Shown here: in pieces, positions 1 to 49,498 of the stretch
How positions within the stretch are numbered: position 1 is the first letter of the stretch
Layout of the letters: every line of letters starts with the position of its first letter
From: Dipodascopsis uninucleata var. uninucleata
Taxonomy: Eukaryota > Ascomycota > Lipomycetes > Lipomycetales > Lipomycetaceae
Assembly: GCA_030568195.1 (NCBI GenBank)
Contig: JAJLTO010000006.1
Span: 434,001 to 498,000, forward strand
Direction of reading: 5' to 3'
DNA length: 64,000 nucleotides
Notes under the pieces: model-generated
Databases searched by the model: none
Told to the model about the DNA's origin: nothing
Seen by the model: only the letters and a program-made list of their open reading frames with translations
Program-made: the position numbers and the translations under genes

Positions 1-968
1 CCATTCATTAGCCAAGTACGTCTAGCAGATATATGACTTCATTTGACGACAATTATACCATACAGCGGTTAAAGGAGTAACCATCATTATATCGTATAGC
101 TGCAGTTCACAGTATTAAGCAGGCATATTCTGATTTGCTCGAGACCTACGGACTATACAAAAGACGACAATATAGTATTTTTTATCAATAAGGAATTTTA
201 TAGGGGAGAAAACGTTATGCCCGAATCAGTGCCAACTCAACAAAACATCTAAACTAATATAATCACTATGCTTATTCCTTTGTGGCTCCGATATGGGGAA
301 TGCTCATTGAATAAATACTAGCGGCTATTATGTAGTATTATTGTAATACCGAACAATTTCTTGATCGTACAACGATATTCAGATTAGGGTTTATGCCGTT
401 AAATTAAAAAATCAGTCCACTCGGTTGTGGCTTATGGTCTATGCTTAGCCACCAGAAATATCAGCCCACAAATTTGTTACATGTCCATTTTAGATCGCTC
501 ATTTCCATTGCGTCTCGAGTTAACAGTTGCAACATTTTTTTTTCGGAACTTCGTTTTCCTTTATATCTTTCTTCCTATATAGTCTATAAGAACGTCAGAG
601 GTCAGGTATTACTATAAACGTGAGATCCATAGGACGGCGGTGTTATGAATATATAACGAAAGATACTATCGAACCGAAATCAATGTAAGTGGTAAGGACT
701 TTTGCCAGTGCCTATATTTGTGGAGCATTTGCAAGTACAGAAAAGCGCAAAACTGACATATGATGATAAGATATTGAATAAATACCAATACTCTAATCTC
801 AAATAATGAGCATTAGTGTCTGGTGATTATATATAGACAATAACTAAGGTAGTCAGACCAAAGGATACTCACTTACTACAGACGGTGATATTTGATTCAA
901 GCTTAATTGACGGTAATATCGCACAAAGCATACAGCATATATAGAATACTAGTGGTGGAATAGACGCT
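1..968. other. Upstream region of SRE1, no gene seen
   Basis: AT-rich DNA with no reading frame or RNA gene that I can support. It presumably carries the SRE1 promoter and leader. I could not pick out a convincing regulatory site by eye. Confidence 0.5.
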
Positions 969-4649: not shown

Positions 4650-4737
4650 ACCCTGCTAGCTCAATTGGCAGAGCGTGAGACTCTTATACAGAAAGCCTGT
4701 TATCTCAAGGTTGGGGGTTCGAGACCCCCGTGGGGTG
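4650..4737 (+). tRNA. tRNA-Lys(CTT) with 15-nt intron
   Basis: Folds as a complete tRNA. The acceptor stem pairs ACCCTGC with GTGGGGT (two G-T pairs). The D arm is GCTC/GAGC, the anticodon stem TGAGA (4676-4680) pairs with TCTCA, and the T arm GGGGG/CCCCC encloses TTCGAGA. The loop starts CTCTTA, so the anticodon is CTT (4683-4685). A 15-nt intron (4687-4701) sits at the canonical position after nucleotide 37. The discriminator base is G4737. Boxes A and B are intact. Confidence 0.95.
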
Positions 4738-32058: not shown

Positions 32059-32236
32059 GCTCTAGTGGCGCAGAGGTTAGCGCATCGGTTAGTATTTCAT
32101 AAATTACTGTTATCATAGATATAGAACTCCAATTAACGAATTAAATAGTGCTTATAGCTGTATTACGGCATCTATACTTGATGTCACGGTCGTGTGAGGA
32201 ACGCGACGGTCGTGGGTTCAATCCCCTCCTAGAGCA
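32059..32236 (+). tRNA. tRNA-Ile(TAT) with canonical intron plus an extra GT...AG insert
   Basis: A 178-nt gene that yields a 73-nt tRNA if two segments are removed. The acceptor stem GCTCTAG pairs perfectly with CTAGAGC (32229-32235), followed by discriminator A. The D arm is GCGC/GCGC. The T arm 32212-32228 has one T-T mismatch and loop TTCAATC. A 44-nt intron (32157-32200) sits at the normal position 37/38. The 3' anticodon strand is CGCGA (32202-32206). Its partner TCGTG is split: TCG at 32085-32087 and TG at 32149-32150, with loop CTTATA after it (anticodon TAT, 32153-32155). The 61-nt insert between tRNA positions 29 and 30 begins GTTAGT, has an ATTAAC motif, and ends TAG. Without the insert the anticodon arm is like yeast tRNA-Ile(UAU). 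Whether it is functional is unknown. Confidence 0.85.
32088..32148 (+). other. 61-nt intron-like insert in the tRNA-Ile anticodon stem
   Basis: Starts GTTAGT and ends AATAG, with AATTAAC 12 nt before the end, which is spliceosomal-intron-like. It lies between nucleotides 29 and 30 of the tRNA, not at the eukaryotic intron position. A G is repeated at both edges, so the exact boundary can shift by one base. Confidence 0.7.
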
Positions 32237-32238
32237 TC

Positions 32239-32246
32239 TTTTTTTT
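32239..32246 (+). terminator. Pol III terminator of tRNA-Ile
   Basis: A run of eight T residues three bases after the discriminator, with a second T-run a few bases further on. Confidence 0.75.
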
Positions 32247-33323
32247 CTATTTTTTTTTTTCCCCTCTGGTTATATAGCATTTCGTTCTGGCATTTTTAGT
32301 TTCTCAATTATTAAATTCCGTAAACCTTATGCAACAGGGAATTAGTAATATATATTAGTGTTAATTACTCTATTGGCGAGATGTGCTGGCATTATTATAC
32401 TTTAATATCTTGTTTACGCCTATTTGTTGTTTTGCTCCTGTTCGTCATTTCACCATTTTAGTGATCTCTGTAATTAAGACAGTAGGCTTAATTCACCAAA
32501 CACACTGAAAGGAGTATATACGCAGGCTCAAATTTGGTTGAAAGGTATATAACTTGAATAAGCTCTATAGATAATAGAAAATCAGCATACACAAGAGATA
32601 AGGGCATTGGAGAAAGGATGAAACAGCAATACTTCCTGTGTAAATAACTGTGAAATTTGCAGAGACGAAGGGGGGGCGCGAATCTTAAGAAAGAGTGGGT
32701 ATAGTGCAGGTCATAAGAACGTCAGATATAGAAAGCAAAGGATGTTAATACTTGTATGACGTACTAAATAGATATATAACGTTAAATATGAATACACAGA
32801 ATAGTCGATCAGAAGTAAAGAATATCAGACCAGTCCAAACGAGCTCTTTTAAAGTAATAGTATATGCTTGAGTGGTTATGACCTTGGCTTGTATGGCTGG
32901 ATCTACATTACATCGCTAAAGAATCGGCGGGGATATCTCTATATACAATATATGTGAATATATAGCGCAGATACGTGCTATGTCTACTTGGTGATATCTT
33001 TTATGAACGATTTATTGATTAATATATTGGAGATGTCTACTTACCATTGTTGACGCGCTTTATACCTAGAATATATTTCTAATCCTTTGAAGTTGTTTAT
33101 CTTCAGCTGTATGTGAGATTGTTTGTAGTTCTGCTTCTGATCATTAAAGAGTCGCCAGAGATCGAAAAGAAAATAGGAGCTGAACAACATTTCGCGACAG
33201 CCGTCTATCTGCTGTAAAACAAGATATCCAACTTCACAGAAAGGATTGAAGGTTAAATTGGCATAACGTGTGTGGTAGTGCTCATTTTATAATAGCCTCT
33301 ATTGGAGGTAAATCACTGGCATC
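32247..33323. other. Intergenic, tRNA-Ile to GH35 gene
   Basis: About 1.1 kb of AT-rich DNA including the GH35 promoter. I see no supported gene. Confidence 0.5.
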
Positions 33324-44800: not shown

Positions 44801-46321
44801 CAGAAACAAATGTCCGCTACTGTAAACGGAGCGTGCATCTGCATACATCAACACACAGCATATGGCTTAGATTGACTGGCATAGTTTGAGTTTTTATTTA
44901 GTTTTAATCTGTTTGAATCTTTGTGATTACGATCTAAATGGTGGTAGAAAAGTAACGAGTAAAAAAACTTACGGCAGCTGACAGTATCGGCTCGTTCGCA
45001 TAACTAGTCCTTGCTTTTGTAGTAATGATCCTACTTGTAGATGCCAATAACCTTTCTCTATGTTTCTGGGCAAACTAGTTATCTGGTTAGCAACTTAGTA
45101 ACCCGGTTACCTGTAGAGATTGTTGCGATGGCAGTTCCTAAAAGTAAATAACAGTAACTAAGATAACTAACTATTAAAAACAAGATTTACCATTATTACT
45201 TTAACTATCTACCGCTACACTCCAACATTTTTATCGCCGGCACAATTTTTGCTTCCTAAGATTATCCAACATAGCGTGCGATTCTTACTCCATCAAACCA
45301 GTTGCAGCCGGCTGTCGAGAGGATAAAAGCATTCTTCAACTCCTTTGACGTCTGAACTGTACTTCACGCAGTAGTCTGCACAGGAAAGATCATACGTTTA
45401 GCTGGACATAGTATCCTGACCACTACGTCTGGGCAATAGTTAACCATCTGTATTTTCGTTTCTTTTTTCTCAACATTTTAGTTTAGTCAGGTTCAGCTTT
45501 CCTGTCTTTTATTTTTTATTTTTATTCATTTACTCAGGGAAATCAGGCTTAAGAAAATCCCTTTTATTTTTCACTCGAATGAAGCGAACGAAGTGAATGA
45601 ATGAGCTGCGTGAGCGAAAGACAGTGGATGGACTAAAATACAGGTAGCTGAAGCATTTTTGAAGAGAGTATCGTCTTCTCAACCTATCGACTTATTCTAT
45701 CAGTACCTATCACTCATATCATCATCGCCTGCCACCAGCATCACCATTATTATCTGTAGCTATTATTCTAGCTGTTCAATTCATTGTGGGCCCCAGACTT
45801 GATGGGCCTTTCCGAATGAGGACTCATCATTGATCTCATCGTCGTTCAACTATCTGTCCTAGTCGTACTTCTCGCTCCTATCATTCATATTTTTCGTCTG
45901 CTTCTCAGGAATCCGCTCGATGCAGAATTTGGTCGTTGCTGGCAGAGTACAACATCTTCATCGGCAGAAGCATCAATATAATTTAGGCTGTTCTCACTTT
46001 CTTCATCATCATCTATATCAGTGTATCATCTCTCGCAAGCAACTTTCATCTACGCCGTTGTCGGCATCTTATCCACTCTCTACAACTAGTGCGCTGTATC
46101 CACTTCCTGACTATTCAACAGACAGCAAGCTGATTTTAGAGCAGTGACATTTCTTGACAATATCTGGAAGAGACGTTGGTTTATAGAACACCTCCACCTT
46201 AGACTGAGGCTGACAATAAGTCTTATACAGAGTGAAACTCTTAGAATACTCCTGTGTTTGACTCTTGCTGATATATTTTGTTTCTTTGCGGACACCGTCA
46301 AGGTTCATACCTGATGTCATT
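41829..46321. other. 4.5 kb gap upstream of AZF1
   Basis: The longest gene-free stretch. Many frames of 60-130 codons occur on both strands, but none has a recognisable motif or sensible exon structure. A short Lys/Arg-rich frame at 43985-44173 is A-rich and probably chance. The right end (about 45.7-46.3 kb) is CT/CAT-rich and is likely the long 5' leader of AZF1, with several upstream ATGs. Confidence 0.5.
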
Positions 46322-46607
46322 ATGTCGCATTCAATGCCTTTGTCGTTAGCCATGTATCATACACAGCAAGGAATACAACAGCAACAGCAACATCAACAGC
46401 AACATCAACAGCAACAGCACCCACAACATCAGTCTATAGCACAGCAACAATTTCACCATCAACAACCAGTATACCATCAGCAGCAGCAACAGCAGGTACT
46501 CCATGCACAACAAGGAATGAGACATGGCTTACAACTTCCTCCAACAACCTTACAACCTTCACCACTTCAGTTTGGCTCTCAACCACAACAGCAGCAACAA
46601 CAACAGC

Positions 46608-46665
<58 letters not shown>

Positions 46666-47957
46666 GCAGCAGCAGCAGCAGCAACAGACCCAGTCACAAC
46701 AGCAACAACAGACATCCCACCAACATCAGCAGCGTTCTGAAAATGGCAATCTACCTCGCCTGCAAATGGAAAACAATTATGATATGCATTGGCAAACTAC
46801 TGCTGCTCATGTTGTAGGCCCTCCCGTACCTGTTTCTCATCCTGATAATACTGGTTTATATTCAACCTATGGTATAATGGGGTTTCCAGCGCCAGCAGGT
46901 GGTAACAGTGCGAGTGCCGTTGGTTTATCTGCCAGTGCCGCATCCACACCACCCCCATCTTCTTTTCATTCGCATTTCTCTTCCCCTCGGCTCCAAGTAT
47001 CTACTCAATCGTCTAGCTCGTTAAAATTGCCTGCCCATCTCGGATCATCTAATTCGATATCTTCAGTATCCTCTGCAAATGGCGTGGTCGCAAATTCATC
47101 TATCGATAATACGAATTATAACTTTTTTGCGCATGATCGGGCCTCTCAAATTGCAACACCATCGTCACAGCTGAAATTGTCTAGTAACCCAAGTGGAGGT
47201 TATCAGGTGGTACAAGATTACTTCGATCCTTCACAGAGGCAAAATCAGCAGCAGCAAGCTCCACAGCAGCAGCAACATCAACAGCAGCAACCACAATCTC
47301 AGCCACAACAACAGCAGCATCATCATCATCATTCGTCCGTAGTAGTTAATCATGGACCAAACCAGTCATCTTCTACTTCCGGAAATGGTGTTAATACTAT
47401 CCCTCCGTCTGTATCACCAACTTCACCGACAGACTTGCATCAATATAGCAGTACTGGCAGCGCAGGTAGTTCTCTCAATAGTAATAGTGCATTGGCTGTT
47501 AATGTTAATGGTGGCCGAGCTTCTGCAGGCGTTATGGTTCGACCTTCAGTCTCTTCTTATTCATCCAGTTCTTCTATTTCGTCTAATTCTGCCCCTTCTT
47601 CTGCTTCTTCTGCTTCCTCTCTTGGATATTCGGCTGTTGATCCTAGTGCTACTAAAATTATGTCGTCTGGTCAATCTTCCACTATTAATCTAGGCGGTTC
47701 TTCTAATTTTGGACATATGACTAGGCCTACATCTTTACCACCGCCTCCGACGTCGATGAATGGTAATATACATCAACAGCATCTTCAGCAGAAACTCCAG
47801 CAGCAGCAGCATCCTGGCAAGCATCATATGTTACAACAGCAGCAACATCACCATCAACAGTTGCAAGCACAAGCACAAGCACAACAACAGCACCAACATC
47901 AGCACCAACAACATCAACATCAACAACAACAACATCAACATCAACAACAACAACAGC

Positions 47958-47991
<34 letters not shown>

Positions 47992-49498
47992 GCACCAGCA
48001 ACCACAGCCACAGCAACAACAACATCCGCAATCTTCACATATCTCACTACAGCAGTCACATCAACCTTTGCAGCACCAGCAACAATCGCAACAGTCTCTA
48101 GAACAACAGCAATCGCCTCTGCCAGTGCAGGCTCAGCGGAATAGGCAGCAGCATACACAGTCGCCAACTCAACAGGATGGAATTGTGCAACCAACACCAA
48201 TTAAAGTGGGAGAGAAACTTGGTGCTTTATCTTCTCTTGGACCACGCCGATCTAAAAGACAGAGTCCAACTACTTTTGATGATGGTACTGCTGTACCTGT
48301 TGGTGCAACTCAAGTTGATCATTTGATGCTCATCATTCAACGTCGTGAAAAGCTACGAAAGGAGCGTACTAATGGCATGGCTGATAATACTGACGTCAAC
48401 ATGATGATTCCTGTAGGTCCTACTCAGGGAAATTCCGTTAGCATGTCGTCTGGTACTAGCGAAATGAACTCTGGAAATCACAGTTCAGTTCCTGCGAAAG
48501 CAGGAAAATATGCGTGCACAGAACCCGGATGTGGTAAAGTGTTCAATCAGAAAACACACTTAGACATTCATGGAAGAAGTCATACCGGATCGCGGCCATA
48601 TGTTTGTGACGTGCCAAACTGTGGTAAAAGATTTTCGCAGCGAGGAAATTTGCGCACGCACAAGAGAAGTCATACAGGTGAAAAGCCATATGTCTGTGAA
48701 ATGTGTAACAAGAGATTTGCTCAGCGTGGAAATGTTCGTGCACATCTCTTAATTCATGAAGACTTCCGACCCTATGCCTGCAAACTGGATGGTTGCAATA
48801 AGTCTTTTACACAGCTAGGAAATTTGAAATCTCATCAGAACAAGTTCCATACAGAGGCATTAGAGTTACTGGCAACAAAATTTCAGTTATATGTGGAAGC
48901 AGACTATGATGAGAATTCTATTCCAGAGGCGGACAGAGAGTTATTTTTCTATTTTGCAGAACTATATCGCAATTCGAACAAAGGTATAAAGGGTCGTGGA
49001 AAAAACTCTACTCGTCTTGTTAAGCTAAAAGATTCCAGCGAGTTTGAGAATGAGCGTGCGGCAACTATTGTCCGTAATGATAGTAATTACAGTGTTTCCA
49101 GCACTACTAGTAGTAATATGGGTAACGGCATTAACAATAATATTACTGGAAATACATTTACGAACAGTCTTTCTGGACAAACTACTGCAAACGTGGCGTC
49201 AGTTCGGGGTCGTAAGCGCAGCGTTGCGTCAAGAGATCAGGTTCAGCTTCCGCCTTTTGATTTAACTGGAGGTTCGAATGCATTTGCTGGTCAGAGCTTG
49301 CCTCCGTCTGCCGTTAATAGTTCTAGTGGCTCGCAGTCTCTAGCACTTCCACCGCCTCCCCCTCCTCCTCAGATGGTTATGCAGCCTAACAATGCACAAC
49401 TTCCACCGCCCCAGCAGCTACTTCCACCGCCGTCATCTGCATCAGTCAATGGTGGGGGTCTGGGACCTGACGGATTTGTTGGGAGATTTTCGCTCTAA
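46322..49498 (+). CDS. AZF1: AZF1-type C2H2 zinc-finger transcription factor with polyglutamine
   Basis: An intronless gene of 1058 residues from ATG 46322 ([13 protein letters not shown]). The N-terminal two thirds are Gln/His/Ser-rich, with pure runs of 34 Gln (46586-46687) and 17 Gln (47942-47992). Four C2H2 fingers follow at about 730-843: [48 protein letters not shown] and [19 protein letters not shown]. The segment after the fingers ([22 protein letters not shown]) is also conserved in yeast Azf1, which supports orthology beyond the generic fingers. In yeast Azf1 binds an A-rich site and controls carbon- and cell-wall-related genes. The targets here are unknown. The C-terminus is Pro-rich. 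The frame is open upstream of the chosen ATG but lacks another ATG start. Confidence 0.93.
46586..46687 (+). repeat. CAA/CAG codon repeat, 34 Gln
   Basis: A CAA-dominated trinucleotide run inside AZF1, ending in several CAG codons, encoding an uninterrupted 34-residue polyglutamine. Confidence 0.95.
47942..47992 (+). repeat. CAA/CAG codon repeat, 17 Gln
   Basis: A second uninterrupted polyglutamine run of AZF1, within a wider Gln/His-rich region (about 47820-48130). Confidence 0.93.

Follow-up and report, generated by a model that had tools for sequence, protein, structure and literature searches.

Introduction

Introns of the mRNA type in RNA made by Pol III and tRNA-Ile(UAU) genes with several introns are each known, and their combination would be new. 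The first case is represented by Schizosaccharomyces pombe, in which the gene of the Pol III-made U6 snRNA holds an mRNA-type intron (PMC10484740). The second is represented by Cyanidioschyzon merolae, whose tRNA-Ile(UAU) has three introns, at 12/13, 37/38 and 53/54, provided with bulge-helix-bulge motifs, and in which the two non-canonical introns go before the one of the anticodon (PMC9602550). Two further systems are of interest for comparison, namely the archaeal tRNA introns at 29/30 (PMC4090602) and a verified internal U2 intron of 61 nt in the reticulon-like gene of Lipomyces suomiensis (PMC7138796).

In this work we describe a tRNA-Ile(UAU) gene of Dipodascopsis uninucleata var. uninucleata that contains, besides its canonical 37/38 intron, an intron-like insert of 61 nt in the anticodon stem. 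The gene lies in the window, i.e., the whole stretch of 64,000 nt that was analysed (C6:434001-498000), of a 16.2-Mb genome assembly formed by 25 contigs. Downstream of the tRNA, at a distance of 2.5 kb, lies an ORF that shares 100% identity with a D. uninucleata glycoside hydrolase; its next best matches are from Lipomyces.

The locus shares something with each of these systems. As with U6 of S. pombe, a short yeast RNA transcribed by Pol III would carry a spliceosomal-type intron, but the host here is a tRNA, an endonuclease-type intron follows, splicing is inferred, and the organism's own U6 gene is intronless. The isoacceptor, the nuclear location and the presence of a canonical intron plus an extra one elsewhere are in common with C. 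merolae; whereas the introns of the latter carry bulge-helix-bulge motifs, the 29/30 insert has none above chance and shows the marks of a U2 intron instead. The archaeal 29/30 introns, which the preliminary description of this DNA had mentioned, interrupt the anticodon stem at the same position, but they rest on bulge-helix-bulge motifs (PMC4090602). The statement in the same description that eukaryotic nuclear introns are essentially restricted to 37/38 has to be qualified by the exceptions in nucleomorphs and red algae (PMC4090602, PMC9602550). Finally, the L. suomiensis intron resembles the insert in its 61 nt, its 6-38-6-8-3 spacing, its TAG end and its DYURAY-type branch, although it belongs to a protein gene and its donor, GUAGGU, has a purine at +3, where the insert has U. 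Searches of an open-access library, by title and opening of the abstract, gave no precedent for spliceosomal introns in tRNA genes; as most subscription papers lie outside their reach, the result offers a lead rather than proof.

Judging from the sequence, we think that there is a slightly better than even chance that the insert is a U2-type spliceosomal intron, hosted by a working single-copy Pol III tRNA-Ile(UAU) gene and removed before the tRNA splicing endonuclease acts.

Anatomy of the Gene

The Rfam tRNA model RF00005 gives 37.5 bits (cut-off 29) over exactly 32059..32236 of the forward strand, the span of 178 nt that had been proposed for the gene. Five segments, all on the forward strand, can be distinguished. 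Exon 1 (32059..32087, 29 nt) comprises the 5' strand of the acceptor stem, the D arm with the A box and positions 27-29. It is followed by the 61-nt insert (32088..32148) and by exon 2 (32149..32156), whose 8 nt are positions 30-37 with the anticodon TAT. The canonical 37/38 intron of 44 nt (32157..32200) separates the latter from exon 3 (32201..32236, 36 nt), which runs from position 38 to 73 and includes the T arm and the B box GGTTCAATCCC at 32215. Two runs of T, 8 T at 32239 and 11 T at 32250 (32239..32260), are likely Pol III terminators. The gene has no internal TTTT, which, together with the B box and these downstream runs, fits transcription by Pol III, but the lack of TTTT is weak evidence: among 3,333 window segments of 61 nt with matched AT content, 1,832 do without it as well.

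The identity of the tRNA depends on which of the two inserts is taken out. With the 61 nt removed, ARAGORN reports Ile(TAT) with an intron, and with both the 61 nt and the 44 nt removed it reports a clean Ile(TAT) of 73 nt, whereas removal of the 44 nt alone gives Val(AAC). Gene finders can misname such genes: on the full gene the intron mode of ARAGORN calls Thr(AGT) with a 90-nt intron, and its bacterial mode calls no tRNA at 32059-32236. Thus, the anticodon stem TCGTG/CGCGA requires removal of 32088-32148, as the preliminary description had maintained. The product without both inserts folds into a cloverleaf with the anticodon UAU, as is proper of a functional tRNA-Ile(UAU). Its acceptor, D and anticodon stems are fully paired; the perfect arms that had been claimed are confirmed for the acceptor and D stems, but the T stem contains U50-U64, the only non-standard pair of the cloverleaf.

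The edge of the insert is ambiguous by one base, since excision at 28/29 (GGTTAG...ATA) or at 29/30 (GTTAGT...TAG) yields an identical product. The 29/30 site that had been assigned is therefore one of two equivalent phases, and it is the only one with GT-AG ends, as in U2-type introns. Being at 29/30, the 61-nt insert does not belong to the canonical 37/38 class of tRNA introns.

The 44-nt segment, on the other hand, is located where the 37/38 intron had been reported and looks like one. When the 61 nt are removed and the cloverleaf is imposed, base pairs form between the intron and the anticodon loop, and a bulge of 3 nt remains at the 3' splice site, as has been described for human pre-tRNA (PMC10539383). 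The imposed fold should be taken as compatible rather than preferred, because the unconstrained minimum is lower (−45.0 versus −37.8 kcal/mol, 61 nt removed). A 9-mer of exon 3, ACGGTCGTG (32206-32214), recurs in the canonical intron (32186-32194), 20 nt upstream, and may offer an alternative fold.

Intron-Like Layout of the Insert

The insert is arranged as GTTAGT-38-ATTAAC-8-TAG, which is the arrangement of fungal U2 introns, and the three motifs mentioned in the preliminary description are all in place. The published fungal consensus consists of a GURWGY donor, a DYURAY branch and an HAG end (PMC7138796). Compared with it, the candidate 5' splice site GTTAGT (32088..32093, forward strand) has one mismatch to GTRWGY, at +3, while the candidate branch motif ATTAAC (32132..32137, forward strand) fits DYTRAY and lies 8 nt before the candidate 3' splice site TAG (32146..32148, forward strand), a normal distance to the first YAG.

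The frequency of this layout was evaluated in both phases, allowing one donor mismatch (a rule chosen after the insert had been inspected), a branch-to-HAG gap of 4–17 nt and no earlier YAG. With the gene excluded, it was matched by 60 of 510,210 deduplicated genome segments (~1.2e-4) and by 10 of the 48,531 that were AT-matched (~2.1e-4). If nothing beyond GT is demanded of the donor, keeping the HAG end and the branch motif, the counts rise to 236/510,210 and, for AT-matched segments, 35/48,531. These counts replace those of a null that included overlapping loci and the gene itself (68/575,628; AT-matched, 14/54,912). Markov resamplings of the insert matched in 50 cases out of 200,000. The whole intron-like layout is more than chance.

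The preliminary description had compared the insert to the mRNA introns of this genome. The likeness holds for branch motif, spacing, TAG end and length, as judged by eye against a small ab initio list of candidate introns; the best coding-supported ones have ATTGAC, ATTGAT, TTTGAC, TCTAAT, ACTAAT or GCTAAC as branch, at 7–15 nt from the last three bases. It fails for the donor, which departs from GURWGY as used in the genome by its U at +3, a change that would lower use of the donor and still leave it possible. When coding-like stretches were delimited by their hexamers and the GT-AG gaps separating them were collected, there were 250 distinct donor sites (deduplicated, and many of them surely chance sites), none of which is GTTAGT, the commoner donors being GTAAGT (6), GTGAGT (4) and GTATGT (3). 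The genome-wide pattern GTTAGT-25..55-YTRAC-5..11-TAG occurs 90 times versus 193 for its reversed control, and the same pattern with GTAAGT, as positive control, occurs 361 times versus 215, the reversed controls not being dinucleotide-matched; introns are thus visible by this kind of test and GTTAGT introns are not. In the window, GTTAGT followed by [CT]TAAC was found 3 times against 3.2 expected, and in a decoy-set comparison the figures for GTTAGT were 2 versus 4. Consequently, the donor failed as evidence for an intron. GTTAGT is moreover able to pair with the branch motif, and a competing TATAG is found 9 nt downstream of the insert's TAG, within the anticodon.

Other properties of the insert were considered. 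A stable fold was discarded, as its minimum free energy of −2.9 is weaker than the shuffle mean of −4.3. A repeat is rejected by the genome search described below. GGTTAG does recur in the D loop, at 32075, as had been noticed, but beyond this hexamer a local duplication receives no support: the insert was aligned with its flanks, the exons and the canonical intron (5 targets, both strands), and none of these 10 alignments was better than those of shuffles, the lowest fraction being 0.158.

Copy Number, AUA Decoding and the Possibility of Decay

An intact tRNA-Ile(TAT) copy elsewhere, which would speak for a dead gene, was sought across the assembly by several patterns and was not found. With the 221-nt locus as query against the 16.2 Mb and an E limit of 10, the single match was the locus itself; the 3' half (25 nt, ≤3 mismatches) also matched only itself; the spliced 73-mer had one match, which is the 3' half of the same gene; and the uninterrupted 29-nt 5' half across the insert site, with ≤3 mismatches, had none. 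A complementary scan looked for TTATA upstream of a B box taken as GGTTCRANNCC, with a gap ≤71 nt. At 10-40 nt there are 4 places, two being Lys(CTT) genes with introns and two being without an ARAGORN tRNA. At 41-71 nt there are 10, namely the tRNA-Ile(UAU) gene, four places without tRNA and five sites of other tRNAs, in which TTATA directly precedes Glu, Gly, Ala, Thr and Gly genes. According to ARAGORN, no Ile(UAU) gene is present at these 14 places besides the copy in the window. Within the patterns searched, therefore, the assembly appears to lack a recognisable insert-free tRNA-Ile(UAU).

The codon is in use, as AUA accounts for 146 of the 466 Ile codons in 15 long ORFs of the window, read in frames from stop to stop, of which a few codons may be non-coding. 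Decay of the gene is less likely because no second or insert-free copy was found and AUA is in use. Nevertheless, a recent pseudogene is the first alternative to be weighed: the insert would have killed the gene, and AUA would be read either by tRNA-Ile(AAU) in its inosine form or by a tRNA-Ile(UAU) that is missing from the assembly. At least four tRNA-Ile(AAU) genes are in the genome, and with inosine they might read AUA; the U50-U64 mismatch and the atypical donor point the same way, as does the tRNA inventory of the genome, which is incomplete: its candidate scan scored 63 of 689 and missed the tRNA-Ile(UAU) gene itself, and its list of B-box places covers 100 of 176. However, the other stems, the B box and the T runs are intact, the canonical intron still fits the fold, AUA is in use, and a random insert would rarely show such a layout. 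We consider a pseudogene unlikely. Between the novel processing route and the pseudogene that had been put forward, the route is favoured because no intact copy was found, the gene is intact bar one mismatch and the layout is unlikely by chance; the atypical donor tempers this preference for what is still a putative route.

Less Probable Readings: A Second tRNA-Type Intron or an Artefact

Another explanation is that the insert, too, belongs to the tRNA type of introns but occupies a non-canonical site, as in red algae, nucleomorphs and archaea; tRNA endonuclease and ligase would remove it, and its spliceosomal look would be due to chance. The precedents are the same isoacceptor of C. merolae (PMC9602550) and the archaeal introns at 29/30 (PMC4090602). 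In the 28/29 phase a bulge-helix-bulge with 3/4 inner and 3/4 outer pairs can be drawn, but 20% of shuffles equal this fit (6/8 pairs) and the motif would use bases of the D stem, while the GT-AG phase reaches only 1/4 and 2/4 pairs. In its strict form, with two 3-nt bulges round a 4-bp helix, a bulge-helix-bulge at the edges of the insert is not above chance. The canonical intron itself scores 2/4 and 2/4, so this simple test is weak for eukaryotic introns. Also against such an intron is that the endonuclease, as known for the human enzyme, reads a mature body including the anticodon stem (PMC10539383), which the insert breaks, and that the U2 layout would be left unexplained. This explanation seems to us quite improbable.

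An artefact of the assembly or of the strain is very improbable. The evidence does come from one assembly, but the contig measures 1.23 Mb, the window is without N, and no other place in the genome matches the insert, so that it is not a misplaced repeat.

Other Loci

Several other loci came to light during the analysis. At window position 4650-4737 (forward strand) there is a tRNA gene with a 37/38 intron (L083), which ARAGORN names Arg(TCT) in bacterial mode and Lys(CTT) in intron mode. Positions 179-277 of L094 (C1:1532578-1532676) are called tRNA-SeC(TCA) by the same program; by eye Leu(CAG) is the better reading, the gene then having an intron, a long variable arm and a single mismatch in its stems. 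L101 (C3:394500-394760), L102 (C3:663880-664120) and L109 (C4:755750-756000) share their exons when aligned with Rfam and differ in the length of their introns, and their ARAGORN names conflict, Arg(ACG) and Glu(TTC). A piece of 18S rRNA (230 bits to RF01960) is found at C3:14650-14900, 14.7 kb into its contig. Within the window, a long ORF at 46262-49498 (forward strand) has very long glutamine/histidine runs and, by eye, C2H2-like zinc fingers.

Proposed Order of Splicing

Under the spliceosomal reading, maturation would proceed in two splicing steps. Pol III would transcribe the pre-tRNA, and the nuclear spliceosome would then use GTTAGT, ATTAAC and TAG to join position 29 to position 30. 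In silico, the anticodon stem forms at this point, and what results is a usual pre-tRNA interrupted at 37/38. By analogy with the family, the tRNA splicing endonuclease would excise this intron and the ligase would join the halves. In yeast, tRNA introns are removed once the precursor has left the nucleus, and a step carried out by the nuclear spliceosome would therefore precede their removal. The same order is expected from the known eukaryotic endonuclease, the human enzyme, which recognises the mature tRNA body, including its D arm and its anticodon stem (PMC10539383): as the insert breaks that stem, it should go first. Whether the series is obligate, with the spliceosome excising a U2-type intron of the anticodon stem and thereby creating the substrate of the tRNA endonuclease, is in our opinion evenly balanced.

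There are points against a spliceosomal intron, namely the atypical donor, its possible pairing with the branch motif, the competing TATAG, the U50-U64 mismatch and the U6 gene, which gave one full-length match without intron among the 48 candidates scored out of 1,445. The locus suggests, short of proof, one tRNA that would need two different splicing machines for its maturation.

Conclusions and Perspectives

If the spliceosomal reading is true, the wall between the introns of mRNA, removed by the spliceosome, and those of tRNA, removed by the endonuclease, would be crossed in one gene. A tRNA precursor would be shown to be able to serve as a substrate of the spliceosome, and the locus would be a natural example of intron gain in a tRNA. 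For the organism, the supply of the tRNA that reads AUA would depend on the activity of the spliceosome.
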